Shown here: piece after piece, positions 2,787 to 47,998 of the stretch
How the letters are laid out: each line of letters starts with the position of its first letter
Numbering within the stretch: position 1 is the first letter of the stretch
DNA from: Isoetes taiwanensis
Lineage: Eukaryota; Streptophyta; Lycopodiopsida; Isoetales; Isoetaceae
DNA: 64,000 nt
Direction of reading: 5' to 3'
Assembly: GCA_021234155.1 (NCBI GenBank)
Contig: JAJEKV010000103.1
Span: forward strand, 1,488,001-1,552,000
Notes under the pieces: generated by a model
The model's database searches: none
What the model was told of the DNA's origin: nothing
What the model saw: the letters and a program-made list of their open reading frames with translations, nothing else
Position numbers and translations under genes: made by a program

Positions 2787-2787
2787 A

Positions 2788-11862: not shown

Positions 11863-12026
11863 CCGAATCCCTTCTTGGAGCACAATGGTTCCATGGGTGG
11901 CTAAAGGATCATGGCACCACTGGCGCCCATGTATCAGTACTCGACTTACCCCCCAACATCCATAGGTCAGCTCACCGCGCCTATCGAGGTCAGGACGTCC
12001 CAACTGACGGTGCCTGCGACCCAGGG

Positions 12027-17830: not shown

Positions 17831-18039
17831 TGAATAAGCTGGTGCATGCTTCACTTTATAATATAGTAATAATATGGTGCATGTTCCATAATAGTAATTG
17901 ATAGGTAATCTACCATTACATCCCATGATAATGCCCACGTGCCAGCAGAACTATGTCATTCTAATATTGAAATAAGACATACCAACAATAGCATACCATA
18001 TCAAACAACCATTTGTAATCAATCTAACATTGAAATATC

Positions 18040-20082: not shown

Positions 20083-20186
20083 TGTTATTGTGCTTTTTAG
20101 TAATTAATATTTAGGCCCATAAAGCTTACCTATGTTTGCTTTAGTTAGGGCCCGAAGGGCCCAAAAATGTTTTTAATATAACAATA

Positions 20187-23015: not shown

Positions 23016-24077
23016 ATGAATAAAGATCTAATTCTGATCATAGCGTATTACCCACGGAGTAGTGACAAACTAGAACTGTTAGAATTAGGGGAGACCATGA
23101 TGAAGTGGAAGGAACAGGGACCAATGATACTAATAGGAGATCTAAATGCCAGGACAGGCCAGGAGCAAGCGCAATATACAAGCATAGATGAAACAAATGG
23201 ACAATGGATTCACACAGCAAGATCACAAGAATGGAACAGACAAACTGAGGACAAGGCAGAAATCAATGCGAAGGGAGAACTGCTGCTCGAGGTGTGCACG
23301 GCCACAGGGGCCATCATAGCCAATGGGGTACAGAGGTGGACAGGATCGGGGGAGTTCACGAGTCAGAACGCACACGGGAGAAGTATAGTAGATTACGTAA
23401 TACTGAATGAGCATGCAACGGACACAGTATCGAAAATTGTGACCCTAGAATGGCCAATTGGGAGGAGGGAAAGTCATAGACCCATGCAGCTGACAATTAT
23501 AGTGGGGGAACAACCTAAAACTGAAGGGCAACAGAGAAAGAAAAGAGACAGGGGAAAGCTGAAAATACATTTCCAAAACAAACACGCAGACACGTTTGTA
23601 CAATCCATCAAAGAAGAAATGGAAAAATGGAAGTGAGATGAGCACAGGGCAAATGAGAATGGGGATGCACTCAATGACATAACAGTGAAAGTGGCATTAG
23701 AAATTTTCGGGAAAAGAAGGAAGAGAAAGGGAAACAATGCCTTCAAGGCCTCAATCTGGTACGACAATGAATGCAGGGAACAGAAAAGGAAAGTCAAGGC
23801 GCTCAGAGGCAAGGAAACATATCAGAATGAAAGAGCGATATATCTGAGGTTACTGAAAGCAAAGAGAAACAAAAACCTGATGCAACACCAATGGGGACTG
23901 GCCAAGCTAATCAAAAAACAACCCCGCAAATTCTGGGGTGGATTTAAAGAGAAGGGACGGGGAATAGGGGAAGTGAAAACACACAAGGCGACATTGGAAC
24001 AGCCGGATGGGAGAATTACCTTGAAAAATTATATAAGACAGGGGCATCTCCGGCACCAATACCGGAACTGCAGATGA
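23016..24077 (+). pseudogene. LINE apurinic-type endonuclease domain and linker
   Basis: The APE-like endonuclease core is clear: IIAYYPR, ILIGDLNARTG (23100-23150; GDLNA is the active-site strand with the catalytic Asp and Asn), then GELLLEVCTATGAIIANG, HGRSIVDYVILNEHA and the final ESHRPMQLTI, where the His closes the site. The first motif with the metal-binding Glu would lie upstream and is missing. A TGA at 23634-23636 interrupts the linker, which resumes at 23685 in the same frame (ASIWYDNECREQKRKVK, typical of the region before RT). Confidence 0.85.
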
Positions 24078-25612
24078 TGGACCGACCGTGTTTCAATATA
24101 CAGGAAGTGATGATAGCGCTAAATGGGATGGCCAATAACAAAGCCCCAGACTTATATGGATTAACTGTGGAAGTATTAAAATGTGCAGATACCATGATAG
24201 GGAAACATGTGACAGATATATTCAATGGTATAATACACACAGGGCTCCCGGACAGATGGGCGTACAACAGGGTCATACCCCTACACAAAGGGGGGAGTAA
24301 ACAGGAACCTGGAAACTACAGGACAATAATGGTAAGCTCCATTTTCGCAAAGTGGTACGGGAAGGTCCTAGACAATAAATTAAAGCAATGGGCAGAGACA
24401 GGGAATTTGAGAGCACAGGGGCAGGCAGGTTTCAGACCAGAACACTCAACAACGGACCACCTAGTAACCCTCCGGATACTGATAGAGCATAATAGAGGCC
24501 ACGGGAAGAAAGTAATATGCTGTTTTGTGGACTTCAGAAAGGCTTTTGACACGGTACCAAGGGAAAAGCTCATACAGAGGCTCATAGACATGCAGGCACC
24601 GAGAGACATGGTAGGGGCAATTGCAAGATTATACTACAATGTATATGCAAAAATAGAAGAAGAAGAAGGAAAGGCAATAAACTGCGACACGGGAGTCAAA
24701 CTGGGATGTCCTTTATCCCCAACATTGTTTGGAATATATATAGATGCCCTACAGGATTTCATAGTGGAACAACAAGGGGATGTGGACGCTCCCATACTCG
24801 GGGAAACCAAGGTACCTATCATGTTATATGCTGATGATTTGGGCATGATGGCCGCAAAGAACAAGGGAGTGCACAGGATGCTGAAACTACTAGAGACCTT
24901 CTGTGAAAAGACAGGGCTAACAATGAATCTTACAAAAACCAAAATAGTCTTTTTTGGTAACAGGAACAATCACAAGCCGTTCAAATATCTGGAGATAGAA
25001 TTAGAAGAAGCAACAGAGTACAAATACCTAGGGTATGATACACACGACACAGGGAAGTGGGCGAAAGGAGCAGATGCTAGATTCCAATCAGCCATTGGGA
25101 GCTACTACAACATGAAAAACTTCTGCAATAGGAACAGAATAATAGACTGGGAAATCAAATGCTACATATTTAGTGCAGTAGTCGTCACAACGCAGCTATA
25201 TGGGGCGGAAGCTTGGGGACCGGGGCTAACAGACAAGAAATTGGAAGAGCAAGAAGGTATTTTCAGACAGCTGCGTAAACAGGAATTCAAACTAAGAGCA
25301 AACACACCGCTGACAGCCATAGTATATGAGACAGGTCAGAAACCTATGGAGATGAGAGCATGGGAAAAGACCATCAGATACATCATAAGGAATAATGCAG
25401 GGGAAGTCAGAGAAATTAGCGAGCATCGCGATCAACGAATCAGCAAAGTCAGACATCACCGCGAAAGCGTGGGATGGTTCAGTGGATGTAGCAATATGGA
25501 CCGTAGAAATGGGGATGAATCTGAGCTTAACCCGATCGATGAAGGCCAATGGAATGAGGATCGGGCAAGCAAAGCTACGCCAAAGCATGGTTACAAAACA
25601 CACGTGACCTAA
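24074..25612 (+). pseudogene. LINE reverse transcriptase
   Basis: An uninterrupted frame of about 440 residues covers the RT: NKAPDLYGLTVEVLK, WAYNRVIPLHKGG, GNYRTIMVSSIFAKWYGKVL, QAGFRPEHSTTDHL, the metal-binding VDFRKAFDTVPRE, GCPLSPTLFGIYIDALQ, and the catalytic MLYADDLGMMAAK, then the thumb (YKYLGYDTHD). The motif KGGSKQEPGNYRTI is a normal LINE feature. The last 70 residues of this frame are probably out of phase: from about 25405 the +1 frame (SEKLASIAINESAKSDITA...) reads more naturally. Joins the upstream endonuclease only through a frameshift. Confidence 0.9.
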
Positions 25613-28197: not shown

Positions 28198-28634
28198 ACA
28201 CACAACTACCATTAACATTATTAACACAAACCATTGCATTTAACACATTTAAATTAAAATCCCCCTTAAACCCCCTTTGGTTTGGGTGCATATTCACACG
28301 GGGGGTTACTCCGGGCAACGAGAGCTGTCGGATGGGCATATTTTCCCTTTATTCCAACATCTGGACCGTATATAGCGATCCTCGTTTGTGGGGTATGCAT
28401 GTACAAGTTTTTGTATCTTTTGTATATTAAGGTTTGTAAAATACTATAAGGTTTGAGATAATGTACTTAATGGTGTTAATTTTGTACATGTATTGTAAAT
28501 TTTTAGGGCTCTCATTTGCCCCTCGTAACCCCCGTGTGAATATGCACCCAAACCAAAGGGGTTTAAGGGGGATTTTAATTTAAATGTGTTAAATGCAATG
28601 GTTTGTGTTAATAATGTTAATGGTAGTTGTGTGT
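28198..28634 (-). mobile_element. Foldback MITE, copy 2
   Basis: Ends ACACACAACTACC and GGTAGTTGTGTGT with about 130-bp arms like copy 1 at 20187. The loop (TATACAGTAAACAAAA in copy 1) is in reverse orientation here. Arms have lost a few bases relative to each other (for example one C less in the right GGTTACGAGG region). Confidence 0.85.
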
Positions 28635-28926
28635 TAATGGTTTATGTTAACTAAAAATTTTCTTTCCTTTGGGGCCTTAAGGATGGTGTAGGGATATATA
28701 ACCATAGAAAGATAAATTAATATGTGAAGCAACAAGAATTGAGATTTGGAACCATCGTTGTTGTAGTTTGAAGATATAATCTTGAATCGAAAAAGCACGT
28801 TTTATTGTAAACGACATGTATCACCGAAATGAGGCTTGACTTGCCACTAAGCGTATCACACTTCTATGGAATTTATACACAAAACAAGATTTCTAGATTA
28901 TATGCAACCTCCCTTGCTCTCAACGT

Positions 28927-31386: not shown

Positions 31387-31602
31387 ATATTGGTGAGAGA
31401 CTCGTCTGGAGGGGGAAAACCAGCCGATCAAAAGAGAACTTCTATAAGATGATCAGCAAGGTATGATTGCCACTATAAAGTTGACATATGTTGAATGAGC
31501 ATCAGAAAAAAAGCCATACCATGTCTAACAAATCAAACTCCCAAATGTAATTGCCAAGATATGAAGAGTGCTAAATGTATCAAAGTGGTTCTGAAGGAAA
31601 TC

Positions 31603-33267
31603 TGTGGCGTTCGGGACGATTATACGGTCCCGGGGCGATATCTTTATCTTGCCTGCCAATCACGCATACACGCCACTCCGACTGACGTGTACGCCGACAT
31701 GTAGCCAAGTGGGTAGCCCTAGGGGGCAACTTGCTAAGAATGTGCATTAGTATTAATGTGCACATTTACCAATGTACACATTAATGTGGGCACACATTTC
31801 CATGTGGACACTTTATGCCAAGTGGGCCATACCCAAGTGTGCAATTAATGTGCACATTTACCAATGTACACATTAATGTGGGCACACATTCCCATGTGGG
31901 CACATCTTGCCACCTAGCCATTAAAGGCAAGTGGGCCCATTCCCAATTATCCCACATGCCTAAAGGGGATAATTGGAAACCCTAGCCAACCCCTTGTCTA
32001 TTTAAGAAGGGAAACCCTAACTTACCCATTTTTCGTTTCTAGGGTTTTAGAGCTCTGTTTTGGCTGCTCAAGAGCCAAAACCGCCCTCGAACTACCTCAG
32101 AGAATTGCACCATTAGTTTCCCTTGATTCGAGCGTTTCAGCAGGATGGTCGAACTCAGGTCAGAAGGAGCCACTCAAGGATCAGGTATTTGGCCAATTAA
32201 ATAGTCTAAACCCTATTTCAGTCATAGAATCAGTAGGTTTAGCCTATTAAATTGCCCATAACAGCCTTCTAGATCTCTAGATACCAGCCTCTAACTAAAG
32301 AACCTAACTCTATGATATAGATTAGATATAGTTCTTTAGTTCTTCTGTGATATATATGGATGATGTATCTCTATGAACTCCTTGTATTGGGAAGGGGGGT
32401 AGAGACCTCAAGCTTGGTAGTAGATGCTCCTAGATTAGCCTCTCTAGCACACTATAGATTCGGCTTGTGCACAAGAACCACACCTGGTTGTGGGTGAAGG
32501 GGCCAGACTGGCTAAGAATGAGGTTCATGTTCTGACTCTTGAATGATCCCTCTGGTGTGTAAGGCCTACCAGGGATCATAGTGACTAGGTCTAATGGCTT
32601 ACCACTGAGTGTGGGTAGGGCATGGACTCGACACCCGTGAAGTGGTGTACACTTTCCAGTGGGTTCAGTCGAATACGGGCAGTGGCCCTCTAGTCATCTT
32701 GAGTCGGCATGCAGATCTCTGGAGGGAGCGATCCCTTCCTGCCCCATCGGAACTGAGAGGATGAGACCCAGGAATAGCCCCTTTGGCTATGCATCCGGCG
32801 GGCTACAGTCAGGTCCCGACACTTTTCAGCCTACTCTGCAAAGTGTGCACCGGAGGGGCGGATGGAGTGGACAACCCTATGCCATGTTCATATGCCAGCC
32901 AAATCCATTGCCATGAATTCTGTCTACAATGAACTCTGGAGACCCAAGCCGTCAGTCATCCCCTTGAGTCTGAGCCTTGGGTAGGACTCCCCATATGTAT
33001 TGTGCTCACTTTGTCTATGCAAATGTGATGGGCCACCCTTCGAGGTGGATATGTGCTTATGTTATATACTGACATGTATGTTTACGCTTCCGCAGCTAGG
33101 TAAGCCCTGAGGGAGATGGGGTATAATGACCCCTTCACTCTTCCCACTGGAACCCGTCACGGTTGCAGTGTCATGTGGAGGGCCCTGTATCGGCATGGAG
33201 CTGGTATGGGGGATGAACTCCTGTTTGTATACGGTGAGTGCACCGTATATGAATAGGGGACGTCACA
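31603..33267 (+). repeat. 5' LTR of Ty3/gypsy element 2
   Basis: Starts TGTGGCGTTCGGGACG and ends GGGGACGTCACA; the matching 3' LTR starts TGTGACGTTCC. It contains a repeated block, ATTTACCAATGTACACATTAA, at about 31765-31785 and 31858-31878. A TATA-like CTATTTAAGAAGG sits at 31998-32010 before AAACCCTAA. This TATA-like block is deleted from the 3' LTR. A primer binding site follows two bases later. Length is 1665 bp. Confidence 0.92.
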
Positions 33268-33268
33268 G

Positions 33269-33302
33269 TGGTATCAGAGCAATGTTCTTGGGGACCAAGA
33301 GC
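33269..33302 (+). promoter_or_regulatory. Primer binding site for tRNA-iMet plus hairpin, element 2
   Basis: TGGTATCAGAGC at 33269-33280. Next, GTTCTTGG (33284-33291) and CCAAGAGC (33295-33302) form a stem with a three-base loop, in the same place as the hairpin of element 1. The element 1 A-T pair is here T-G, so pairing is kept despite changes. Confidence 0.9.
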
Positions 33303-33483
33303 AAAGCACTGACCATGCTCCCAGTAGCACTAACTTGATAGGATCCTTAAACCTCGAAAAATGGGAATTTTTTTTCTCATTTTTGTAGTTTATGCTAAGC
33401 TAGCAACAGTTAGAAATGACTGAAAATATAATGAAAACATAAAAAGACTAAAATTGGTGAGCCAACCTTCAAAAAGTAGGGTG

Positions 33484-33550
33484 GTCTCACACGTCGCGCC
33501 AGGACAGATAATGAGAATCTCATTTTCGGGCTGGGCACAACGTGTGAGAC
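33484..33550 (+). promoter_or_regulatory. 67-bp palindromic hairpin, type A, before the H3-like gene
   Basis: Outer arms are GTCTCACACGT and ACGTGTGAGAC, a perfect 11-bp inverted repeat. The inner palindrome AATGAGAATCTCATT sits in the centre, with imperfectly paired CGCGCCAGGACAG and GGGCTGGGCACA between. Exactly 67 bp, as in the other three copies. The arms carry an ACGTGTG core, known as a plant bZIP/ABRE-type site, and three of the four copies carry TGTCTC at the arm. This suits either a DNA site for a dimeric regulator or a structured RNA. Confidence 0.85.
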
Positions 33551-33656
33551 ATTCAGCTTGAACACACCAAAAAGTCATAAATTACGGACTAAGAAATAGT
33601 AAAATTGGCATATTATACGCTTAAAAAGTATAAAATTTAATAGCGGGACCCACCAT

Positions 33657-33723
33657 GTCTCACACGTCGCGCCAGGACAGAAAATGAACTTTTCATTATC
33701 GGTCTGGGTGCAACGTGTGAGAC
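33657..33723 (+). promoter_or_regulatory. 67-bp palindromic hairpin, type B, before the H3-like gene
   Basis: Same outer arms as the type A copy, but the centre reads AATGAACTTTTCATTATCGG and the right half has GGTCTGGGTGCA. Type B copies (here and at 35507) resemble each other more than they resemble type A, so the A-B pair was duplicated as a unit. Confidence 0.85.
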
Positions 33724-33801
33724 CATGCTTAAATTTAGGTGTTCTAGATGTTTTAGGTAACCCAAAAAGGTAGTTTGGAATTTGACCTAAAAATCGACCC
33801 C

Positions 33802-33809
33802 TATAAATA
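33802..33809 (+). promoter_or_regulatory. TATA box of the H3-like gene
   Basis: TATAAATA lies 79 bp after hairpin B and 103 bp before the ATG at 33912. The shared motif AGGCGATCTTCCA follows at about 33871. The second cassette has the same arrangement at 35763. Promoter activity is inferred from this repeated layout. Confidence 0.75.
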
Positions 33810-33911
33810 GATCTGGACCCCCTCCCCCCATTTCCGCGTCCCCTCCTTAGGAAAATCGCCTCTCACGCCAAGGCGATCTTCCAAATACCACGCATTGAAG
33901 AACCGTCAAAT

Positions 33912-35162
33912 ATGGCCCGCACAAAGCAGACCGCCAGAAAGCCCCGCCGACGTGGATCCTCCAGCGCCAGTGATCCCGCCCTGATTCAGAGGATACTCCA
34001 AGAACGCCTTTTCCGGCAAGGCGAATCTTCTTCCAGCGAGGAGGCAGGATCGGATCGGAGCGACCAGACGGAGGTCATAGAAGAGGAGCGGCCGGACATT
34101 ATGCAGCAGATTCTCGAAGAGATGGCCGAAGAGGAGAGGAGGAACAGGGAGGAACGGGAGCAGTTAGGGCAGCCGACCGTCGAGGAGCAACTCGAGGCTT
34201 GGGCCCGCCCCAGAGGAGGAGGAAGAGAGGAGGAGGCGGTAGAGCTTAGCCCTGCTGAAGAAGCAGACCTCACGGCCTTCATCAGCAAGTATGAAGCCAA
34301 GGAGCACCGCCGAGAGAGGAGGACGAAGAGCCGGGAAGACGACCCAACCACAGCCGGCGGGCCGAAGAAGAGGAAGGCCAAAGCCATTAAGGCGGGCAAG
34401 AGAAAAGTTGTGAAGGTTGGTAAGCGAGCGACGGGTCCCGTCATCAACGAGCCATCAGGCGAGCAGACCCCGCCTTCTACCGACGACTCAGACGAAGATT
34501 ACGTCCCCAACACTGGGGGGGCAAGCTCTTCAAAACCCCCGGTCGTGGAGAAGGAAGTACCGGAGCAAAAAGACCGAAAGCAGAAGAACAAACCAGGTGC
34601 ACCAAGCCCCCACCTTTTCCGACGTGGGATAGAGTTAAAGCCCCGCGACCCCAACAGGAGGCGTACGTGATAGACCCGGTCAAGGTCTATCAAGAAGAAG
34701 ATTAAGGAGCACAACGCCTACATGGCGAAGTGGGAGGCGTACAACGCTTACTACCAGGAGCACAGGGTGAGAATGATTGAAGGCGGACGCCCAACAAAAA
34801 GCCAGACCCTGAAGCTGCCGCCACCCAAGCCCAAGCCTCCCAGAGCACCAGGAAAGAAGCGGACCAAGAGCAAGCAGAAGGAGCAGAGGGCCCTCAAGGA
34901 AATCCGCACTTCCAAATGGGTTACGGACTCTTGATCCCCCTCGGCACCATTTCAACGCTTTGGTCCGAGAAGTCATGCAGAGAGTACAACACGGATATGC
35001 GCTGTGACCGATGAAATGTCATTGCACGCACAGGAGGCAGCAGAGGCGAAAATAGTGCAGCATTTTGAGGATTCGACGACCTGCACAGTTCATGCGAAGA
35101 GGGTCACGCTTATGAGACAGGACATGTTTTTGGCCAGACACATCAAGGGAGAACGCCCTTGA
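33912..35162 (+). CDS. Histone H3-like protein encoded inside a retrotransposon (frame interrupted)
   Basis: The ATG at 33912 gives [10 protein letters not shown], identical to residues 1-9 of histone H3 (K4, R8 and K9 kept; S10 replaced by Pro), then [11 protein letters not shown] long charged insert follows: acidic at about residues 35-85 and rich in Lys/Arg at about 130-175 ([14 protein letters not shown]). From about 34883 the H3 fold appears: ALKEIR (alpha-N), [12 protein letters not shown] (alpha-1, +1 frame), then [25 protein letters not shown] and [10 protein letters not shown] to a TGA at 35160, the natural H3 end. In the last 43 residues I count about 26 identical to plant H3. Loop 1 keeps canonical length, unlike CENH3. 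TGA-TAG at 34668 and frame changes near 34930 and 35005 break this copy. An AT-rich 3' UTR-like tract follows. Canonical H3 is 135 residues; this is about 416. Confidence 0.88.
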
Positions 35163-35307
35163 ACTTCTTGTAAATAACGAAAATTTTTGTTAATATAAAG
35201 AATTTTTGTGTAAATAATGTGTCCAAATCTTGCTTAATTAGGTTAGGATATTGAATTTTAGCTTTTGTTTTGGCCAAATTGGAGTTTTTGAGCAAAATTG
35301 AGACGAT

Positions 35308-35374
35308 GTCTCACACGTCGCGCCAGGACAGAAAATGAGAATCTCATTTTTGGGCTGGGCACAACGTGTGAGAC
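35308..35374 (+). promoter_or_regulatory. 67-bp palindromic hairpin, type A, before ORF2
   Basis: Outer arms GTCTCACACGT/ACGTGTGAGAC and centre AATGAGAATCTCATT as in the type A copy at 33484, with only a few differences over 67 bp. It lies about 145 bp after the end of the H3-like gene. Confidence 0.85.
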
Positions 35375-35506
35375 CATGCCCAAAAATGCCCAAAACAGCT
35401 CCAAATCGACCAAATAAGGGGTCAATTCTGCCTAACTCGGCAAGTTTAGTAGAATTACAGCCTTAGATTACCCAAATTGATTAAGTTTAGCCCATTTAGA
35501 ACCCAT

Positions 35507-35573
35507 GTCTCACACGTCGCGCCAGGACAGAAAATGAACTTCTCATTATCGGTCTGGGTGCAACGTGTGAGAC
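35507..35573 (+). promoter_or_regulatory. 67-bp palindromic hairpin, type B, before ORF2
   Basis: Matches the type B copy at 33657 almost exactly (centre AATGAACTTCTCATTATCGG). The A-to-B spacing is 199 bp here and 173 bp in the first cassette. Confidence 0.85.
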
Positions 35574-35762
35574 CTCGCACCATTTTGTTCACCATGCCAT
35601 ATCCAAGTGATCTCCAAATTGTTGCAATAGGTTCATTAGTCTATCTTAGCATGCTTTAAACCTAAAAGTAGTCTTCAAACTCTCAATTGCCCTTTAATAG
35701 ATCAGGATCACCCAATCTCAGTAAATTCTAGATCATCCAAAAATTAGGGTTTTCCCCTTTTC

Positions 35763-35770
35763 TATAAATA
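35763..35770 (+). promoter_or_regulatory. TATA box of ORF2
   Basis: TATAAATA followed by GGTCC, 115 bp before the ATG at 35885. The 5' leader shares AGGCGATCTTCCA (about 35820) with that of the H3-like gene, which supports duplication of a whole promoter-leader unit. Confidence 0.75.
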
Positions 35771-35884
35771 GGTCCTCCACTTCTCATTTAGCACCCTGCA
35801 AGTTTGCTCTCGACTGCTTAGGCGATCTTCCAGCTCCCTGAGGCGCTTCTGCATCCGTTTGATACTCTCTTCTTTGCTAGATCA

Positions 35885-36930
35885 ATGGCCAGTGCTGACT
35901 TCAGGCGATGGTACAACGCCAGTGCCCATGCTGCCGAGGCGGATGTCAATGACATCTTCCGAGTCTTTGGGAGGGAAATAGATATCCAAGCCACGCTGAA
36001 TGCAACCCCAGCATATAGACAAGTCTTAGCAGAGTTCCAAGCTAGGGTAGGACCCTCCCTTGTCCAGGTTCCCCCTTGCATAGGCTATTTTGTTCCCCGC
36101 CCATCCCTTCAAGCAGCCTTGGGTGATGTCCCCAACATCGCCAAGTACCTAACTAACAAGGCGCAGAGGCTACGGACTACATGGTCCCCGACAATAACGG
36201 GACCAAGTATTTCTCCTACACCGCCGCCTTAGCTATCTTCCTATCCCACCGTGCCGAAAACCCATTGGGGGCAACCTCTATTCCTCCCATGGAGGTAGAC
36301 CCCATAGCGGCCCAAGCAGAAGAGCAGATGCTTTTGCAGTACCAGCAAGAGCAAGAAGGAAGAGAGGAAGAAGAGGAGTCGGACGACGAAGAGTACACCG
36401 AGCTAGACTCAGAGGAGGAACGGCGACAAGCGGAGGAGGAGCTGGTCAACTTCGAGCAGAACCGGCAGAACATCAGAGTTGCTCCCCCACTTGGGCTAGG
36501 CATCACAAGCCTAGCCCCTATCATCATCGATGGAGAGGAGTATCTACTCCTCAGCGACATCCAGAACCTCCCCGAATGCAGAGAGAGGGAGCTCCGATTG
36601 GATGAACTGCTCCACCAACCTACTTAGACCGACATGGACGACTTCATCATCCGGGAGTCTCGGACTTCCCGCTTCAAGTCGTGGAAGCCGACACCTACTC
36701 GAGGGAAGCGACTTCCCATATCCGCATACAGCAAAGATAAGGCGTGTTATGGAGACCGGAGACTGGCCATCCAAGAAGAGTTCCTCGCCATTCGTGAACG
36801 GATGGGGATCGAGGCAAGACCACCAAGATCCGATGCCGAGTCCCTCGACACCACCTCCAAAGAAGAGGAGCAGAATCGACCTCAGCGAAGTCGACTCCAC
36901 AATCAAGACTACCGGAGCTCACCGAGATAG
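35885..36930 (+). CDS. ORF2, acidic protein of unknown function carried by the retrotransposon
   Basis: The ATG at 35885 (context ATCAATGGCC) opens MASADFRRWYNASAHAAEAD. One frame change near 36180 joins it to YFSYTAALAIFLSHRAENP, an acidic run (EEEEESDDEEYTELDSEEE, about 36367-36423), APIIIDGEEYLLLSDI and LDELLHQPT. A TAG at 36625 is followed in frame by MDDFIIRESRTSRFKSW and EEFLAIRERMG. In the homologue in element 1 (6680-7690) the TAG position is open, so the longer form is probably original. Coding may go on with frame changes to about 37398 (KKFLEDNPSYLRF then stop). No zinc motif, catalytic signature or histone fold is seen. Acidic tracts near a basic histone gene would suit a chaperone, but that is speculation. 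Confidence 0.65.
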
Positions 36931-37568
36931 AGGTTTAATTTAATATGCCGCGGGCATAGAGGAGGCCAAACAAGTGGGGAATCATCCACGACGACAACGA
37001 CAAAGTCAGCCGAGGTACTACCCGCCATCGCTGCTAGATCGGGAGAATAGCGGTGGTACACCGCAAAATTCAGCCCCGGGGTGAGGAAGGAGTGTTCATG
37101 CCGATTGCACTCCTCGGGCTTTAAGCAGCATGCTCGAATAGCGGCAAATGTCGACTTCACGCCGTCCTAGTCAAGAGAGCAATGGCACTTGACCTCTTCG
37201 ACCGTCATACCTCATCGACGTCGCGAGATTAGCGGTGGCAGCCCCTCACATCCGACCAGCAGAGTGGAAGACTTGGCGAGAGCCTTGCGGGCGGCTCGTC
37301 GGCAAGCGTCTTCGGGAACTTGGGTCATTCTTAGGAACGGCCCAAGTTAAGAAGTTCCTAGAGGACAACCCATCTTACCTACGATTTCAAGATTAGTTAG
37401 ACTCTTGATCCCTGAGACTTTTGTACTAAAATATTATATAATATATGAATATAATTTCTTTTGCACTTTAAATGTTTTGTTGATGTGTTTTGTCCCACAA
37501 CTATGCCAACAAACCACTTATAATGCAAGAGAACAAGTAAAACTAACCACATAGCCATGAATTACTTA
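36931..37568 (+). other. Possible ORF2 C-terminus and transcript end
   Basis: Up to about 37400 the sequence is GC-rich with short coding-like frames (EDLARALRAARRQASSG in one frame, GTAQVKKFLEDNPSYL in another). Then an AT-rich stretch, with AAAATATTATATAATATATG at about 37429-37448, looks like a 3' UTR or terminator region before gag begins near 37569. Confidence 0.4.
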
Positions 37569-38596
37569 TGGATGCAGTTAGGGGCCTAGGCTCAGGGGAA
37601 CGACAATGCCAAGACCTCAGGGAAGAACAGAGTCCGCCCAGGCCACCTCCGGCAAGGAACCTGTTCGAGGAATTTGAGGAAATATCACAGATGAGGACGG
37701 GGCTTTGCTAGCCGCATGCTGTGAGCTGGGTTCGGTGCAACGCCTGCTTTACCTCAAGCATCCTCTTCGGAAGACAGAAGGGACAAGAAGAGGAGCAAGA
37801 GAAGGAGGTCCTCCAGCTCGAATCCTCCGACTCAAGCTCGATTCTGACTCAACTCGAGGAAGAGGAAGAACAGGCCCAGGACCGAACAGATGGAAGGCAG
37901 AGGAACACGGCAGATGCAAGGCAGGGGGACGCCATAGATGGACGACAAAGGGACACAGAGCCTCTGACTACCAGAAAAAGGTAGATTCTGCACTGGGCAA
38001 TGTATGGAAGGCCCAGAAACTGGAACAGTTCTTTGGGAGAACAGTCGATTAGAAGCGAGAGGCATGGTCGACTAAATGAGTGAGTACGGCAATGCTTATG
38101 GTATGAAGGATAAAGACAAAGGCAGAGTGGCAACAGCCAACTTGAAAGGAGCCGCACGAATTTGGTGGAAGGGTTATGCAAAGGCACATGGCTTAAGCAG
38201 GGATGCTTGTAAGTTTAGAAAGTTTGCTAAAGCCTTCAAGTGCCATTACGTCCCAAGGGAGCACAAGTCCAGCATGATGCAACAGTTCTACAGGTTGCAA
38301 CAGGGAAACAAATCAGTCCGAAATATCTGAGGGGAATTCATGAGGCTAAGACTTTATGTGCCAAAGTTGGGCGAAAAACATGCAGTAGAGAGCTACATTG
38401 AGAGCCTGAATGAGGAGATCCGCAAGCTTGTAAGGGCAATAAATCCTAAGACAGTATCAGAAGCAGAGTCCAAGGCAATAAGCTTGCAAGGAACGGGACC
38501 TCAGAATAGCGGGCAAAGGCAGCAAGATTACGGGATAAAGGCAAGGCAACAGGGGAGTTATAGCCCTAGGGCAGCCAGGTCCAGTCCAAATTAGAG
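37569..38596 (+). CDS. Gag polyprotein of element 2 (interrupted)
   Basis: A plausible start is ATG at about 37566-37569 (MDAVRGLGSGERQCQD). A proline- and acid-rich N-terminus with frame changes follows. The Retrotrans_gag capsid core then reads NLKGAARIWWKGYAKAHG (about 38138-38190), FKCHYVPREHKSSMMQQFYR and, after a TGA at 38328-38330, GEFMRLRLYVPKLGE...VRAINPKTVSEAESKA. That pattern is standard for plant chromodomain gypsy elements. I see no clear CCHC zinc knuckle. The role would be assembly of the virus-like particle. Confidence 0.85.
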
Positions 38597-39160
38597 CCCC
38601 ATATGGTGGCAACCAGGGGAAACAGCAGGAGAAGAAGCAGGTGTCCTTCAAGGACAAGCAGGAGGGGTCAAACTACTCCAAAGCAGTGCGATCCTTTTTG
38701 CAGGCTATGCCCAAGGAAAAGAGACAGGAGTGCATAGAAAAGCAGCTCGCTTCCAGCTTCCAGCCAGCCATAGGACGTGAACTGCCCCTCGTCATGAGTG
38801 CAAAGACTAGCGAATTGGGAGATTGGGACACTCACGTCGACGACGACGGCGAGGAAGCCCGACTACATTCGTGGTGAGTGTCATATCTTTGCCGCAATAG
38901 ATACAGAGCAAGCAGAGCCGCCAAGATAAAGTAATTTCCACAAGAGGGGAAGGCCAAGACCAAGTCCTTCATAGTCTTGATAGACTCGTAAAGTAGCCAT
39001 AACTTTGCATCCCCGAATGGTTCAAATGTTGAAGTTGAAACCACTAAAGTCAAAGCCAAGGCCCGTTGTCTTAGCAAGTGGAGCAAAAAAGGCGCACGGC
39101 GGCAAGAGAATTAACCGACATCGACTTGCCGTGGATTAATATCCGGATAGGGGCGAAGTA
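38597..39160 (+). pseudogene. Linker and aspartic protease N-terminal part (broken)
   Basis: The retropepsin active site would be DSG-A/S-SHNF. Near 38977-39015 the sequence reads IDS-stop-SSHNFASPEWF, so the catalytic Gly codon is replaced by TAA. The segment downstream loses frame until [12 protein letters not shown] (39167-39215), the flap-to-C-terminal strand of the same protease. The break may be real or a base-calling error, but as written no active protease is made. Confidence 0.65.
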
Positions 39161-40264
39161 ATGGGCATTGGCAAGTACGACTTGATCATAGGAATGGAGT
39201 ACCTTGGACCAGCAGGGGCCATTATTGATTGTGGAAAGCGGAAGGTGACCTTCCCAACGCCCGATGGCAAAATCATTGAGATCACAGGTAAAGAAGTTGT
39301 TCCCATCATGCAATGTATGTCTTCTAAACGGCTGTTCAAGTGCATCAAGAGCGAGCAGGTAGCATACATCTTCAAGCTTGAGATTGATGAGCCAGAGTCA
39401 GAAGAAAGCAAAGAAGACAAGGTGCTCAGCAAGTTGCCGAAGCAAATAGCTAAGCTGATCACGGAGTTCCATGGTCTCTTTCCAGATGAGATCAAGCAGC
39501 TTCCTCCTTATAGGGGAGTCGAGTGTGAGATAGCACTCGAACCAGGAACAAAGCCGACAAGCAAGGCTCCATACAGAATGACGACGCAGGAGTTGACGGA
39601 GCTGAAGAAGCAATTACAGGAGTTGCTCGACCTAGGCTTCATTAGACCTAGTGTCTCGCCATTTGGAGCGCCCATTCTCTTTGTAAAGAAGAAGGATGGC
39701 AGTTTAAGGATGTGCATAGACTATAGGCAGTTGAACAAGCACACAATTAAGAACAAGTATGCGCTCCCCAGATCAGATGACTTGATGGATCAACTCCAAG
39801 GTGCAAAGGTCTTCTCCAAAATCGACTTAAGGTCAGGTTATCATCAGATCAGGATAAAGGAAGAAGATATCCATAAGACCGCCTTCAGAACGCGGTATGG
39901 GCATTATGAGTTCACGGTAATGCCTTTCAGATTATCGAATGCCCCCGCGACGTTCATGAGGCTCATGAACGACATCTTCAGGGAATTTTTAGACACCTTT
40001 GTGATTGTATTCTTTGACGACATTTTGGTGTATAGCAGATCCCTTGAAGAACACGTACAACACTTAAGGAGAGTGCTAGAAAAGTTGAAGAGGCACCAGT
40101 TGTACGCCAAGTTGTCGAAGTGTCACTTACCAAGAAGGAGGAGGGTAGAAAACCTAGGGCATGTGATATCGCAAAAAGAATTTCGACGGATCCCCGCCAA
40201 GATTGAAGCGTTGATTCAAAGGGCGGCACGAAGAATGTGCATGAGGTCAAGTTTTCTCGCCTAA
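39161..40264 (+). CDS. Protease C-terminus and reverse transcriptase of element 2
   Basis: After LIIGMEYL (protease end), the RT starts with [20 protein letters not shown]. It shows all main gypsy motifs: [74 protein letters not shown] and the catalytic [15 protein letters not shown]. Plant elements more often have Y/F-V/I-DD, so FFDD is acceptable. The frame ends after LSKCHL, where the usual FGQ/FG-G-H-V box has a small frame change. Converts element RNA to DNA within the particle. Confidence 0.93.
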
Positions 40265-40952
40265 GGTGGTACTACAAAAAGTTTGTGAAGAACTTTGCCA
40301 AGATAGCGCCCCGCTAATGACTTTTGACGAGGGCGAGAAGGTGAAAGATTGGGCGAGAGCATTGACACAAGAAAGCCCAAGCGGTTTGAATTGTTGAAGG
40401 AAGCTTTAACAACAGCCCCAGTCCTAACCTTCGCCGACCCAGAGAAGGATAAGCTTGTAGCGACAGATGCGAGTAAGATAGCTACAGGTGCAGTGCTCAT
40501 GCAAGAAGAGCGTGTGGTAGCGTATGATTCTAGGAAGATGAACGACGCTGAAACGCGCTACCCCACGCATGATCAGGAATTGCTTGCGGTTGTCAGGGCA
40601 TTAAGAATTTGGAGGCATTACCTTTTGGGAAGGAAGTTCCAACTGGATACAGATCATCAAAGCCTCCAGTATGTATTCACGCAACCACACCTCAACCTGA
40701 GGCAGAGAAGGTGGATGGAGTTCCTTGAAGAGTATGACTTTGATATAGTCTACAAGCCAGGGAAGCTCAATGTGGTAGCAGATGCGCTTTCAAGGCATCC
40801 CCTGACAACTAGAGTGCATTGCAATGCAATTTCGACGCTCTCCAGCGACTTTGGTAAGAAGATTGAAGAGTCCTTGCCAACGGATGTGGATTTCAGGGAA
40901 GTATGGGCGAGTCTCTCTAGGGAGGCTAGAACAGATAAAGAGCGGGAAGCCT
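40265..40952 (+). CDS. RNase H of element 2
   Basis: After the RT thumb, TTAPVLTFADPEKDKLVATD begins RNase H: ATDASKIATGAVLMQE (catalytic Asp), YDSRKMNDAETRYPTHDQE with the catalytic Glu, FQLDTDHQSLQYV with Asp, and the connector LRQRRWMEFLEEYDFDIVYK and VADALSRHP. The open frame is cut by the nested transposon after GAAGCCTTTAA at 40946-40956; its last residues beyond that point are transposon sequence. Confidence 0.9.
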
Positions 40953-40956
40953 TTAA

Positions 40957-43498
40957 CACTAGAGTGGTCCCGGGGACCATTCCTGGTCCATGGACCAGAA
41001 TTGGTCTAGTTGACCCACTGGCACTTAAACCAATATATCTAAGAATAGAAGTTTCAATTTCGCGATATATCGCCATCATATCAATCTTTAATTGATTGTT
41101 AATGACCTTCGAGAATTTCAAGACCAATGAACTCACCTATATGTTGTTGTGATTGTTCAAATATTAGAGAATTTGACAGTTTCTGCAACAGTCCAGAACT
41201 GCAAGCTTGGGTTTTCCTAGCTTAAACAGGCCTAAACCTTGCTAAAATTGAAAGTATTTGTCTATTTATGATAGAACACATTGATTTGTATGTTTTCAGC
41301 TTTGGTTGCTATCATGTAACGTCTGTGGAAACCGGCAAACCCTATTTTGTTCAAAAATGCTGGTGCGGTTTAGGAATTATTTCTCTCTTAGTATTACAAG
41401 TTTTGGCTTAATTCTTGTGGCCATAGTTTCTTAACTATATGTACAATCTTATGTTTTTTTGGAGTGTTCATAAGTTATATCAACTTCGAAATCTAATAGA
41501 GAATTTCCTATACAGAATTTAGGACAAAATTATATGCTAAAATGCTCCAAAATCACCACCTGTAAGTATCATGAGGGTAATGAGTGATGCATTCTTCTTA
41601 TATCTACATAGAAATCTACTCTATCAACTTGCATATAGTGTAATTAGGGTTTAACCATGCAATTAACTAGATTTAAATTTGATGTACAGCCATAGGATTA
41701 ACACATTAGAGGTTAAAATTTTAAGTTAATTCCAAAATTATAGGCGAAAAACTCATCATTTACTAGCTAGTGATGTTTATTGATGAATGAAAGTGAAGAT
41801 CGTGAAGTTTAAGCATAAGAATAAAAAATTAAACCATATGACCTTTGATGCGTCTTTCTCAGCTTTGTAGAGAACACACTACATTTCTTCAAATAAGCCT
41901 TCCAAATGGTTCAAAATATGACGAGGGACATATATATAGGTCCCCTATGTAGGTTGTGTGGCTTTCTTGGCAAAAAACACGGAGAAATATGGTTATTTTT
42001 TACTAGTATAAAACTATTATATCCATTGCTGCTACAAAGCATTAGTGTTTTAGTAGGATAATGTTACAAGTAGGTCATCTTTCATGTACACTATATTTTT
42101 CATGAATGCGGGCCTTCCTTTGCAATATAACTCTCTATTTTCATATTGAAATTAAATACTATTTGAAAGATACGAATATAATTAAGCATGAACCATTTAT
42201 GGTCCATAATTAGACCAATTGTATAGAGCATATATCTCTCACTAGCCCTATCCATTTTGTCGCCATAATGATACCATGGTTTCTTACATTTAATAGCATA
42301 ATTTTTGAAAGGTGTGAGTGTAAATCCATGTAGATTCAATTGGCGAATAAGTACCCATGAATTCACAGTTGTTTGTGCTTAGACATTGCCCTCAAATTAT
42401 GCAAGCTCGTCTAACCAATTAATTTTACCCCATAGAGACCTGTACCCATAAACTATATTCTAAAGTTGAGATCAAAATTGATTAAGATGTTGTCTCTATT
42501 AATTTTCAAACTTCCACTCCTGTGGACCAGTAATGGTCTGCAAGTGAAACTGCACATAGCAGTCTAACTTGACTTTTTATAGTCATAAACTTCCATATTT
42601 TTCTTTGAATTTTTTTGCATTGATTTTATGACATGGGACATTTTGAGAATGTGTTTTTTCAAAGTCACGTCTCGAGGCATAAATCTAGAATAAACATAGA
42701 AGACATATTTGAATTTGATGCTATAAAGTTTAATCCAAATCTCAACGTTATGATCAACAAATATTTTCATTACTAAAGTAAATCAGAAGCTATTCATATC
42801 TCAAAATTCAACTTCAGATCAATTAACATAAGGAAGTTATTGATTTTAAATGGACCTATGGACCAATAATGGGCTCAGGTACAGAAACCTTTCTTGATTT
42901 CTTGTGACCATGTCTTTTACATTTTTAATGAGCTTGTTTTTGCATTGGTTTCATATCATTTTAAACTTTCACACTATGATTTTTTATGGGATGAAGAAAC
43001 TTGTCAATTGCTTATATATCAAATATTAGCTCAAAATGCGTTTCCTCGTAAAAGTTGTTGTATTTAAACTACAACTGCCTTCTGGGAACCATAATTGGTT
43101 TTGAGGAGACAGAAAGCAGTTTTGACCCTGTCATGTTTGAATGGCCCTATCTTTCTTCACAGACTTCGGATTGACATGTGGTTTTTTGTGTCCTTTTCCT
43201 TATCTCATGTAGAAAAATATCATAGTAATCAAAAAATTTGAAAAAATCATTTTGTCGAGACAGTTTTACTTTATGTAAACATGAAGCTTTTGGTACTTGA
43301 CCCCCCTGAGTTTGCTAGAGCATAACTTACAAGAATGGAGGTGTATATATTTTTAGGTATTTTTCTAGTGAACCATGACTGCCATATATGAACTCCTAGG
43401 AAGGGTTTGAATAGATTTTATACCATTGATTTTATATGAATTTTAATGTGAACACTGCAAATGGACCATTTCTGGTCCATCACCTGACCACTCTAGTG
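40957..43498 (+). mobile_element. Nested TTAA-target DNA transposon (piggyBac-like, non-autonomous)
   Basis: Bounded by TTAA at 40953-40956 and 43499-43502, with terminal inverted repeat CACTAGAGTGGTC / GACCACTCTAGTG. Removing it with one TTAA leaves the integrase frame intact across the joint (EAF then KYYKKKGN), a strict test that the boundaries and the 4-bp duplication are right. CACTA-superfamily elements share the first five bases but duplicate 3 bp, which does not fit. No transposase frame is seen in the AT-rich 2.5 kb. The palindromic motif GGACCA-N4-TGGTCC or near variants occur at 40974, 40992, 42524, 42860 and 43463, so they may be subterminal binding sites. A left-end relative is at 17638. 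Confidence 0.85.
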
Positions 43499-44890
43499 TT
43501 AAATATTATAAGAAGAAAGGCAACCTGTTATACCATAAGAACAAGTTGTGCGTGCCCGAATCATCAGGGGTAAGGAAATTGATCCTCCATGACACGCACA
43601 ACAGCCCAATAGCTGGCCATGCGGGATTCATGAAAACATATTTCAAAGTGCGCAGCAGCTATTATTGGCCAGGAATGAAGAAGCATGTAGCTCGCTACAT
43701 CAGGGAATGTCAGCTATGTCAGCAGACGAAGGCAGAGCAGCTTCGAATTCCAGGAGCATTAGAGCCATTAGCGGTGCCAAACGCTAAGTGGGAGGTGATC
43801 AGCATGGATTTCATCACAGGGCTTCCAAGAACAGTAAGAGGAAAGGATGCCTTGATGGTAGTGGTCGACAAGTTGTCAAAGATGGCATATTTTGTGCCTT
43901 GCAGGACCACAGATACGGCTATGGATACAGCAAAGCTCTTCACCAAAGAGATCTTCAGGCTTCATGGCATGCCAAGGGAGATTATCTCCGACAGGGATCC
44001 GCAGTTTATGAGTGCCTTCTGGCAAGACCTCTTTGCGACCATTGAGGCATTTAAACTATCCATGAGCACGGCGTATCATCCTCAGACGGATGGCCAAACG
44101 GAGCGGACCAACAGGATTTTGGAAGACATGCTATGAAACTATGTCTGGAATAAGCAAGGTATGTGGGAAGAATTTATTCACTTGGTGGAGTTTGCATACA
44201 ATAGCACCAAGCAGGAATCATCCCAAATGTCGCCGTTTATGATTAATTACGGCTATCAGTGCCTAACTCCAGACACTTGGCACAATCCCGTGTCAAAAGT
44301 AGAGGTTTCGCAGCAGATGTTGGCCGATATGCAGCAGCTCGTGGAAGAAGTTCGAGGATATCTGCTAGCAGCAAGAAGTCGGCAGAAGAGCATCGCCGAC
44401 AAGCATCGAACAGTCAGAGAGTTCAAAGTTGGAGATGATGTTTGGCTCAAGATCAAGGTGAAGCAGGCAAAGCTCAGGATCGGGAATTGCAAGAAACTTG
44501 CTCCAAGGTGGGCTGGACCTTTCAGAATAGTCAAGAGAGTAGGCAATCAATCCTACAAGCTAGACTTGCCAGCACACCTAAAGATTCATAAGGTCTTCCA
44601 CGTGAGCTTGCTGAAGAAGCACACTCCAAATCCAGACGAAGTCTTGGACACTCCAACGTTGTTAGAAATGACAGAGGAGCAGCTGGAAATAATTCCAGAA
44701 TTGATTCTTGATAAAGCTTTCAAGAAAACAAGGAGGTCGGAGTTCCTCCAATATTTGGTTAAGTGGAAACACTTACCGGTGGAAGACGCGACGATCTAAT
44801 AAAGCAGTACCCGCAGTTTATGGAGCAATGGGACGGCAAAGTCATCTCCGAAGAAATCGGCTCAGGCATGTCGATTTGTGTAGATTAATT
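43499..44890 (+). CDS. Integrase and chromodomain of element 2
   Basis: The zinc-binding HHCC region is intact: H in ILHDTH, H in AGHAGF, then CQLCQQTK. The DDE core has SMDFITGLP, SDRDPQFMS and QTDGQTERTNR with the Glu. A TGA near 44135 in LEDML-stop-NYVWNK interrupts it. The GPY-like region (WAGPFRIVKRVGNQSYKLDLP) and the chromodomain follow: FLQYLVKWKHLPVEDAT, a short deletion, then LIKQYPQFMEQW. Chromodomains of this type bind histone marks, classically H3K9 methyl, and steer integration into heterochromatin. The core aromatic W after DAT is lost by the indel. Confidence 0.92.
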
Positions 44891-45760
44891 CTTGTATAGT
44901 TAAGATTAATCTACGCATGCAACCTATGCTAGGTATGGGTCGCATGCGTTGTTACCGATGATGGGACCACTACGGTGATCTCTAGAGCGTGGTGTAATGT
45001 CAATGTAGGCATGACCGCGTTTTCGCTTGGGCGAGTGGAAGGTAGATTAGAAAGTCTACTTCTGTTCCACGGAAGTAGACGACCTCGAGAGAAAGAAGGT
45101 CATTAAGGAATGCACTGATAGGAAAAGCACCTCTAGCCCCATATATGCTTTGATAGGAGGAATCAGGCCTTCACGCCCCATATACGGGAAGGACCTATCC
45201 TCCACGATGGGCAACTAGGGTGTAGGCATGAGCGGCATATAGGCATATAGGCGCTGTCTCCACGGCCATAATGGAAGATTCACCCTCTTCCTACGCCGGG
45301 AGATTAGCCATGCATCCATGTAGATAGGTGGGGTGGTCACTATATAACCAAAAATTTATTAATAATTAAAATGGTACTAACATAGTATCGACCTGCAGGC
45401 CAATAGAGCGCTCCGGAGGGCAAGGAGGTCGAGCTATGAAGACTTGCAACACAAATTTTGTTGGAATGTGTTGCAAGGAATGAAGAGTACCTCGAACAAT
45501 AATTGTAGATATGAAATGATAAATTTTGATAAACTTAATCGACGTGATAAGTAAACTATCGAGTAACTTGCTTAAAGATGTTATGAATTGATAAGTTATT
45601 TCATAATATAATGGCGTAATAATGTTCTAAAAATATTACCTTAAGGTAATCTTAATAAATGTGTAAGTATTATAGTAGTTTATCGTATGTATCGGGTTGA
45701 TTGCAGGTTAAGATGATCCCAAGGTGGGGAGAACCACGATGCTGCGGACAGCATCATTTC
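44891..45760 (+). other. 3' untranslated internal region of element 2
   Basis: No gene. Ends in a duplicated purine block: AAGGTGGGGAGAA occurs at 45721-45733 and again at 45761-45773. Confidence 0.5.
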
Positions 45761-45773
45761 AAGGTGGGGAGAA
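45761..45773 (+). promoter_or_regulatory. Polypurine tract of element 2
   Basis: AAGGTGGGGAGAA immediately before the 3' LTR start TGTGACG, the normal place for the plus-strand primer. A second identical tract 40 bp upstream (45721-45733) could act as an auxiliary site or be a remnant of a shifted LTR boundary. Confidence 0.85.
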
Positions 45774-47405
45774 TGTGACGTTCCAGGACAGTATACGGTC
45801 CCAGGACGTATACTGTACTGCCTCGTCACGCGTACACGCCACTCCGACTGACGTGTACGCCGACGTGTAGCCAAGTGGGTAGCCCTAGGGGGCAACTTGC
45901 TAAGAATGTGCATTAGTATTAATGTGCACATTTACCAATGTACACATTAATGTGGGCACACATTTCCATGTGGACACTTTATGCCAAGTGGGCCATACCC
46001 AAGTGTGCAATTAATGTGCACATTTACCAATGTACACATTCCCATGTGGGCACATCTTGCCACCTAGCCATTAAAGGCAAGTGGGCCCATTCCCAATTAT
46101 CCCACATGCCTAAAGGGGATAATTGGAAACCCTAGCTAACCCCAGGGAAACCCTAACTTATCCATTTTTCGTTTCTAGGGTTTTAGAGCTCTGTTTTGGC
46201 TGCCTCAAGAGCCAAAACCACCTCCCAGACTCTGCCCGAGAGAATTGCACCATTAGTTTCCCTTGATTCGAGCGTTTCAGCAGGATGGTCGAACTCAAGT
46301 CAGGAGGAGCCACTCAAGGATCAGGTATTTGGCCAATTAAATAGTCTAAACCCTATTTCAGTCATAGAATCAGTAGGTTTAGCCTATTAAATTGCCCATA
46401 GCAGCCTTCTAGATCTCTAGATACCAGCCTCTAACTAAAGAACCTAACTCTATGATATAGATTAGATATAGTTCTTTAGTTCTTCTGTGATATATATGGA
46501 TGATGTATCTCTATGAACTCCTTGTATTGGGAAGGGGGGTAGAGACCTCAAGCTTGGTAGTAGATGCTCCTAGATTAGCCTCTCTAGCACACTATAGATT
46601 CGGCCTGTGCACAAGAACCACACCTGGTTGTGGGTGAAGGGGCCAGACTGGCTAAGAAGGAGGTTCATGTTCTGACTCTTGAACGATCCCTCTGGTGTGT
46701 AAGGCCTACCAGGGATCATAGTGACTAGGTCTAATGGCTTACCACTGAGTGTGGGTAGGGCATGGACTCGACACCCATGAAGTGGTGTACACTTTCCATG
46801 GGTTCACCAATCTGAGGCGGTGGCCCTCTAGTCACCTTGAGTCGGCATGCGGATCTCTCGAGGGAGCGATCCCTTCCCGCCCCCATCCAATCGGGAGGAT
46901 GAGACCCAGGAATAGCCCCTTTGGCTATGCATCCGGCGGGCTACAGTCAGGTCCCCACACTTTTCAGCCTACTCTGCAAAGTGTGCACCGGAGGGGCGGA
47001 TGGAGTGGACAACCCTATGCCATGTTCATATGCCAGCCAAATCCATTGCCATGAATTCTGTCTGCAATGAACTCTGGAGACCCAAGCCGTCAGTCATCCC
47101 CTTGAGTCTGAGCCTTGGGTAGGACTCCCCATATGTATTGTGCTCACTTTGTCTATGCAGATGTGATGGGCCACCCTTCGAGGTGGATATGTGCTTATGT
47201 AATATACTGACATGTATGTTTACGCTTCCGCAGCTAGGTAGGCCCTGAGGGAGACGGGGTATAATGACCCCTTCACTCTTCCCACTGGAACCCGTCACGG
47301 TTGCAGTGTCATGTGGAGGGCCCTGTATCGGCATGGAGCTGGTATGGGGGATGAACTCCTGTTTGTATATGGTGAGTGCACCGTATACGAATAGGGGACG
47401 TCACA
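45774..47405 (+). repeat. 3' LTR of element 2
   Basis: TGTGACGTTCC to GACGTCACA, 1632 bp. Compared with the 5' LTR it lacks part of the repeated ACACATTAATGTGGGC block (near 46035) and about 14 bp containing the TATA-like CTATTTAAG (around 46141). It also has small differences in GC-rich stretches near 46800-46890. Confidence 0.92.
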
Positions 47406-47998
47406 GAAACCTGGGGGGAACTAAAAACTACTAAACCCTAGGAACAATTTGGAAATAGAAAGAAATCATGGCAAACAAATCTAAATGGCAACTAAACAAA
47501 AAAATACGCGAGACCATTAGTGGCAAATAAATAAAAGGAATAAGAAGGCATTTGTAAGGAAGACGGTTGAATAAGAAATTACTTTTAAAGGGTACGGTTG
47601 ATTGGGAGACTCGAACCTTCACCATTATACTTGGTTTAGCTAGTGGTTCCAGGCTTTGACTCGTTTATTGGTCTTTTAAAACACAAATCGAGATTTCATA
47701 AAACCGTCATATGCTGTGAATAGGTAACCGAACAAAAGGCGGCAGAGAAAAGAGAACTCCGGAATGCCAAAAACGAAGAAGAAAAGAACGGGTAGAACAA
47801 ATCCGATTACAAAATCAAAACAGAGGGAAGAAGAGCTATGCTCGATGATCAGAATTAGACTAGTAAGAGCGATTCACAAAAAGAAACAACCGATTTTTCC
47901 AAATAGACAGGTATGGGAGCAAAAAGGGGAAAAATATTAAACAGCCACAGATCGGTCCAAGGAAATCACCGGTTAATCATATAATACTGAAAGCGCTC
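47406..47998. other. Intergenic after element 2; nothing recognised
   Basis: A-rich sequence with no supportable gene. The first bases outside the LTR are GAAACCTGG. Confidence 0.4.

Follow-up and report, generated by a model that had tools for sequence, protein, structure and literature searches.

We found that a Ty3/gypsy LTR retrotransposon family in the lycophyte Isoetes taiwanensis carries a histone H3-like ORF between its primer-binding site (PBS) and gag, and that the H3 tail and histone fold encoded by this ORF are under strong purifying selection. The family was recognized in a stretch of 64,000 nt (the window), which is positions 1,488,001 to 1,552,000 of the forward strand of contig JAJEKV010000103.1 (GCA_021234155.1). 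A first-pass annotation of the window had proposed an LTR retrotransposon with an H3 gene between the PBS and gag, and this is supported, as a selected feature of a family. The same annotation wrongly assumed a fern host.

By its sequence, the element in the window is a Ty3/gypsy retrotransposon and is chromovirus-like. The order is 5′ LTR, PBS, ORF1 (H3), ORF2, gag, reverse transcriptase (RT), RNase H, integrase, and a partial chromodomain (Table 1). The Ty3/gypsy assignment follows from two LTRs, a PBS, gag, and RT-RNase H-integrase in that order, and open pol pieces are found in a second copy (L069) too. The PBS is presumably of the initiator tRNA-Met type. No clear target-site duplication was seen at the ends of the element. 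The Chromo score is just below the 25.1 bit cut-off; the window piece ends at a stop, and in another copy (L070) the sequence read stops inside the chromodomain. The order is clear in L069, which is less decayed: it has a 417-aa H3 ORF, a 511-aa ORF2, a 501-aa frame for gag in which a zinc knuckle can be seen by eye and protease is matched weakly, then RT and RNase H/integrase. ORF2 (4594-6126 in L069) has an acidic middle, and neither its two window pieces nor the L069 protein had a Pfam match. In the window, about 2.3 kb (41093-43446) separate the RNase H and integrase pieces, which share one frame in L069, as if another insertion intervened. A 200-nt piece (40953-41152) recurs at 17634-17833 (86%).

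Table 1. Features of the H3-carrying element, numbered from the first letter of the window.
Feature	Position	Strand	Details
5′ LTR (TG...CA)	31603..33267	+	94.2% identity with the 3′ LTR over 1674 aligned positions
Primer-binding site TGGTATCAGAGC	33269..33280	+	Directly after the 5′ LTR; same 12-mer upstream of ORF1 in 47/60 copies
Hairpin repeat 1, upstream of ORF1	33484..33550	+	Fold -33.3 kcal/mol; repeat family D11
Hairpin repeat 2, upstream of ORF1	33657..33723	+	Fold -38.7 kcal/mol
TATA-like CTATAAATA of ORF1	33801..33809	+	111 nt before the ATG
ORF1, H3-like protein, broken in the window copy	33912..35162	+	Three stops and a frame change
H3 tail in ORF1	33912..33941	+	100% match to H3 residues 1-10
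H3 histone-fold region, alpha-N to C-terminus	34890..35159	+	tblastn E=1.4e-14 to a plant H3 query; Pfam Histone match in piece 34938-35159
Hairpin repeat 3, upstream of ORF2	35308..35374	+	Fold -34.9 kcal/mol
Hairpin repeat 4, upstream of ORF2	35507..35573	+	Fold -38.5 kcal/mol
TATA-like CTATAAATA of ORF2	35762..35770	+	123 nt before the ATG
ORF2, broken in the window	35885..37396	+	511 aa and open in L069; ORF reading and comparison with L069
gag capsid region	38076..38591	+	PF03732 E=4e-10 in 38076-38327; PF19259 under its cut-off in both pieces
Reverse transcriptase	39140..40261	+	PF00078 E=5e-36
RNase H	40328..41092	+	PF17917 E=5e-35
Integrase zinc-binding and core	43447..44133	+	PF17921, PF00665
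Integrase C-terminus with partial chromodomain	44137..44796	+	SH3_Tf2-1 E=2e-22; Chromo 24.1 bits, E=3e-5
3′ LTR	45774..47405	+	Pairwise LTR comparison

The window copy of ORF1 begins, as first described, with the nine-residue tail ARTKQTARK after the ATG, and its C-terminal H3 region ends at a stop (35160-35162) where H3 stops, in the same register as the tail. The earlier count of 26 H3 matches among the last 43 residues was reproduced against host H3, by eye. The proposed H3-profile search gave a Pfam Histone match for the piece 34938-35159 (35.9 bits, E=1e-8, cut-off 26.4), and the same piece matches PDB H3 chains with E=2e-11. A chance match is ruled out by E-values of 1e-8 to 1e-14. The first-pass annotation had also read one coding sequence joining both ends. 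The shared register stands, but three in-frame stops (TGA-TAG at 34668-34673, TGA at 34932-34934) and a frame change do not fit an intact gene. The open part is 252 aa long (33912-34670). Because of the stops, and because part of the fold (34951-34980) reads in another frame, the window copy is a decayed, dead member of the family that cannot make the H3-like protein.

Other copies carry the H3 segment as well. At least 113 matches, at roughly 100 places and including the window itself, were obtained when the genome (1,658,258,908 bases, 1110 sequences) was searched with the window ORF1 and 100 of 12,217 candidates were scored. We read 60 copies, comprising rows 2-51 by rank and ten later ones hand-picked from rows labelled stop-free. 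By a length and end filter, 34/60 copies are open all the way from MAR... to the end of H3 (27/50 in rank order, 7/10 hand-picked). Pairwise protein identity among the 34 open copies is 0.67-0.98 (median 0.82), and the closest pair is 97% identical in DNA. We call this architecture type A. A search with the RT gave at least 110 matches. Among the 110 listed, 21, including the window, have an ORF1 match 3-20 kb upstream, and in 19/21 it lies at 4.6-5.6 kb. A random sample of 20 was taken from the other 89 listed RT matches, for which no ORF1 match is listed; 18/20 have ORF1, or much of it, together with the H3 fold, and 2/20 are blank at the expected place. Divergence in these RT-chosen copies reaches about 40-55% identity over long stretches, most have no full-length open frame, and the exact 10-residue H3 tail is found in 8/20. 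Because 18 of these 20 carry ORF1, the H3 ORF is a regular component of the element family, and many copies of it have decayed like the one in the window. The number of genome copies, the 34/60 open frames and the 18/20 RT-chosen copies with the ORF also rule out the one-off insertion of a pseudogene. A host H3 gene cluster is ruled out by the fixed place of ORF1 before RT in the 19/21 matched cases, and probable host H3 genes were found separately.

The one type A protein tested contains a Histone domain (93.5 bits), and its best PDB sequence matches are H3. The comparison with the protein database covered type A queries. The N-terminal 252 aa of ORF1 had no relatives there at E<=0.001, and residues 330-416 of the broken copy matched only a Chloropicon histone (E=1e-4). 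The fold alone had 5180 matches, of which the best 120 are single-domain H3s with up to about 60% identity.

A second architecture, type B, was found by searching the genome with the Pfam Histone profile (150 of 8705 candidates scored). The top 15 rows (164-165 bits) look like host H3 genes, and the three that were read each encode a 136-aa canonical H3. The other 135 rows listed score 144.5-154.7 bits, far above the 93.5 bits of type A, and 36 of them have frames of at least 400 aa. As no more than 15 of these 150 rows, the best-scoring ones, resemble ordinary H3 genes, such ORFs risk being annotated as host H3 genes. The type B layout is known from eight copies (L093-L100) chosen among the 135 for long open frames, and all eight are open. 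In each, an N-terminal domain of ~200 aa is followed by a linker that is charged or rich in Q, by a segment that by eye is similar to H3 residues 9-14, and by the H3 fold; a free canonical H3 tail is absent. The fold is 83-88% identical to host H3 in the four copies compared. The Histone domain scores 141-147 bits in four proteins, and the best PDB sequence matches are again H3. Both types thus appear by sequence to possess the H3 histone fold. Predicted structures were of too low quality to bear this out: the AlphaFold models had a mean pLDDT of 54.7 and 56.8, and Foldseek with these models returned no PDB match at E<=0.001. In the three type B copies read far enough upstream, the PBS is the same as in type A, and the H3 ORF follows ~700 nt after it. 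The ORF after the H3 ORF in L093 and L094 is weakly similar to type A ORF2. An hhalign comparison of the type A and type B ORF2 gave a probability of 5.3% and E=0.0073, and its score of 20.9 exceeded those of all 30 shuffles (highest 17.25).

Among the eight type B copies, synonymous sites have diverged almost to saturation (pS 0.65-0.73), suggesting that the family is old. Synonymous sites are also saturated between the element folds and the single host gene compared (L101). This gives no date for the capture, as L101 shows the same saturation when compared with another host H3 gene, L103.

Selection on the tail and the fold is strongly purifying. The proposed dN/dS comparison across copies gave values for both (about 0.04-0.07) that lie far below the value near 1 of neutral decay. 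In the 34 open type A copies (median dS about 0.6), the counting method gave dN/dS of 0.044 for the tail, 0.221 for the linker, 0.154 for the block before the fold, and 0.046 for the fold. With the codon model, omega for the whole ORF was 0.200; the fold had 0.068, the block preceding it 0.140, and the linker 0.277. For the 10-residue tail the model stayed at 1.000, which is no usable value. These copies were chosen for openness, so omega is biased downward somewhat, but in our judgement this bias is too small to give 0.05 at such divergence. Pooled dN/dS of the eight type B copies was 0.059 for the fold, 0.158 for the N-terminal domain, and 0.258 for the linker. In five longer copies, where values are inflated by decay and the broken window copy is included, dN/dS is lower for ORF1 (0.255; fold 0.178) than for any other ORF: RNase H/integrase (0.297), RT (0.313), gag (0.351), and ORF2 (0.461). 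Passive hitch-hiking of a captured host gene fragment of no use to the element is therefore very improbable. It would agree with the broken window copy, with the lack of a full-length open frame in most of the 20 RT-chosen copies, and with the captured H3 copies of a fungal hAT element, most of which are reported to be dead (PMC6710886). The strong selection on tail and fold contradicts it strongly, and the lower dN/dS of ORF1 than of ORF2, gag and RT in the five copies compared, the two architectures with open copies, and the ORF in 18/20 RT-chosen copies speak against it as well.

The residues kept and changed in type A are not those of a neutral copy of H3. The exact 10-residue tail is present in 30/34 open copies, with K4 kept in 33/34 and K9 in 34/34. 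The residue after K9 is proline in 33/34, which may disturb modification of K9. Each of the eight residues that we take to form the H3-H3′ interface is the majority residue in type A, though just 51/89 fold residues match host H3. Only 8/16 DNA-contact residues, by a list that we likewise assume, are kept. R63P and R129H are fixed (34/34) and, with the loss of DNA-contact residues, could weaken binding to DNA or chaperones. From the kept K4/K9 and interface, the 8/16 DNA contacts and the two fixed changes, we read type A as a protein that would still pair and tetramerise like H3, yet is no neutral copy of it. The fixed R63P and R129H, and a tail that is held at 0.044 while the linker varies, would also suit a decoy, i.e., a protein that stays out of nucleosomes and titrates H4, chaperones, or the writers and readers of H3K4/K9, letting new copies evade silencing. 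We consider such a decoy unlikely, as the whole fold is constrained as much as the tail and an intact H3 tail at the N-terminus is missing from type B.

ORF1 and ORF2 in the window are each preceded by two 67-nt hairpins, then the TATA-like CTATAAATA, then the ATG, and the two upstream stretches are 73% alike. Upstream of ORF1 in the 60 copies, the TATA-like box was found in 56/60, a hairpin arm in 56/60, and the exact PBS in 47/60; these counts are if anything low, as one copy (L011) was read without its upstream side. The distance from the box to the ORF1 ATG is nearly fixed, at 91-113 nt in the 50 copies measured. A search of 31500-47500 against Rfam at gathering thresholds found nothing, the hairpins included. 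The hairpin pair with the TATA-like box looks like a duplicated promoter or processing module, and we infer the promoter function from this arrangement. A TATA-like box of its own suggests that ORF1 has a separate mRNA and is not made as a Gag fusion, which counts against a packaging role. Such a role would place the ORF1 protein in the virus-like particle or pre-integration complex, where it would condense the cDNA or take it to the nucleus by way of histone import and chaperones, and it would not join host chromatin. ORF1 directly precedes ORF2 and gag, the long, charged linker of type A has basic, lysine-rich stretches, and DNA-contact residues are less well kept than the H3-H3′ interface, all of which would fit. 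A free, near-invariant K4/K9 tail would be needless in a particle protein, and we regard this role as improbable.

The first-pass annotation had the H3 captured from the host. A captured H3 is indeed present in the family and is near-canonical in type B, but the type A fold has CenH3-like residues and shares just 57% identity with host H3. Its identity is 54% to an Arabidopsis CenH3 sequence and 53-58% to type B. In a tree that included two plant CenH3s, type A forms a long branch beside them, and type B joins host H3 with support of 80. The type A fold has ALKEIRHFQK, LLIP, and RVTLMR-type residues in common with the Arabidopsis CenH3. Of 24 changed type A residues, 12 are shared with that sequence, a number reached in 0/10,000 shuffles. 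This sharing is weakened as evidence because other divergent H3s share comparably: database H3s pre-selected for similarity to type A gave 8/18 and 6/11. The type A fold resembles plant CenH3 in these residues and differs from it in lacking the CenH3 loop-1 insertion and in having a canonical H3 tail. It is conceivable, if doubtful, that two H3 paralogues entered the same place of one lineage, a canonical H3 giving type B and a CenH3, later fitted with a canonical K4/K9 tail, giving type A. The elements would then provide variants of H3 with which to label their own copies or to guide the chromodomain integrase to selected chromatin, amounting to a chromatin code under element control.

Retroelements are silenced through marks on the H3 tail, and many read those marks with a chromodomain. 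The conserved tail and core across copies suggest that these parasites use their own histone to deal with host chromatin. We propose that a Ty3/gypsy lineage captured a host H3 gene and keeps it as ORF1 with what appears to be its own promoter-like module. Two parts would have been retained: the N-terminal tail, K4 and K9 among its residues, and the complete histone fold together with the H3-H3′ interface. The protein would be imported into the nucleus, pair with host H4, and be placed in nucleosomes as a replacement of H3. There type A, through its altered tail and its long, charged linker, and type B, through the added N-terminal domain, would change how chromatin is read by silencing enzymes or by the element's integrase chromodomain. 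We infer the pairing with H4, the entry into nucleosomes and the benefit to the element from sequence features. There is precedent: a bracovirus H4 joins host nucleosomes (PMC9145170), and the chromodomain of the retroelement MAGGY binds H3K9me2/3 (PMC3350952). The fixed R63P and R129H, the 8/16 DNA contacts, the proline after K9, the lack of a free canonical tail in type B, the poor AlphaFold models, the choice of the 34 copies for openness and the dead window copy speak against an H3 variant in chromatin. On balance, we put the chance that the element supplies an H3 variant that is placed in chromatin and alters it for the element at about even, which makes this the leading explanation, with the particle protein and the decoy as its chief rivals.

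The window contains other features. A second Ty3/gypsy element (38-13643) has 2.75-kb LTRs and the same PBS type, and over two stretches the DNA of its pol shows about 67-69% identity. An H3 ORF was not detected in it; a 14-aa H3-like match at 3204-3245 was treated as chance (E=0.19, and weaker with type A (7.2) and type B (0.96) queries). Nested inverted repeats at 20145-20627 and 28198-28680 are 91-100% complementary, flank about 7.6 kb, and resemble a foldback element pair. ORFs at 23016-25612 resemble the endonuclease and reverse transcriptase of non-LTR retrotransposons (translations read). A 1027-aa ORF at 53213-56296 consists of pentatricopeptide-like repeats (translation read; repeat family D1) and fits the PPR-rich genome of Isoetes.

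To our knowledge, no other retroelement has a core histone as a standing part. The earlier statement that no lineage with its own core histone was known agrees with our search of the open-licence PMC literature, in which the best 8 to 20 titles, of up to 225, included no core histone in an LTR retrotransposon. An element lineage equipped with an H3 of its own, whose K4/K9 tail is selected, would be the first such retroelement known to us, and with it one could ask directly if parasites remodel host chromatin through histones that they provide, not through enzymes. The newness is narrower if the kind is taken to include all mobile elements that have captured an H3, as fungal hAT elements do carry one.

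Fungal hAT DNA transposons with H3-like genes (H3L of Pyrenophora tritici-repentis; Pseudocercospora fijiensis) are alike in that a mobile element multiplied a captured H3 (PMC3538342, PMC6710886). Those elements have terminal inverted repeats and are recent or RIP-inactivated, whereas the Isoetes element is an LTR retrotransposon with strong purifying selection among diverged copies and long N-terminal additions. By the presence of LTRs and gag-pol, instead of a hAT transposase and terminal inverted repeats, it falls outside the hAT-H3L class. The bracovirus H4 (CvBV-H4/CpBV-H4) is also a captured histone with an altered N-terminal tail, and it joins host nucleosomes (PMC9145170, PMC5423620). 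It differs in being an H4 of a wasp-borne DNA virus, used against another organism, with no retroelement involved. NCLDV histones (Marseilleviridae, Medusavirus) and singlet viral H3s are element-encoded core histones as well (PMC9145170, PMC11500106), but the NCLDVs are large DNA viruses, many with doublets or full sets that form nucleosome-like particles. In the main text of the viral-histone review (PMC9145170), "retrotransposon" and "retrovir" occur 0 times. Plant chromoviruses share the LTRs, the PBS, the gag-RT-RNase H-integrase order, and a chromodomain-like end with the Isoetes element. The Isoetes element differs from them by two additional ORFs upstream of gag, one of them an H3, and none such appear in the part of PMC3350952 used for this comparison.
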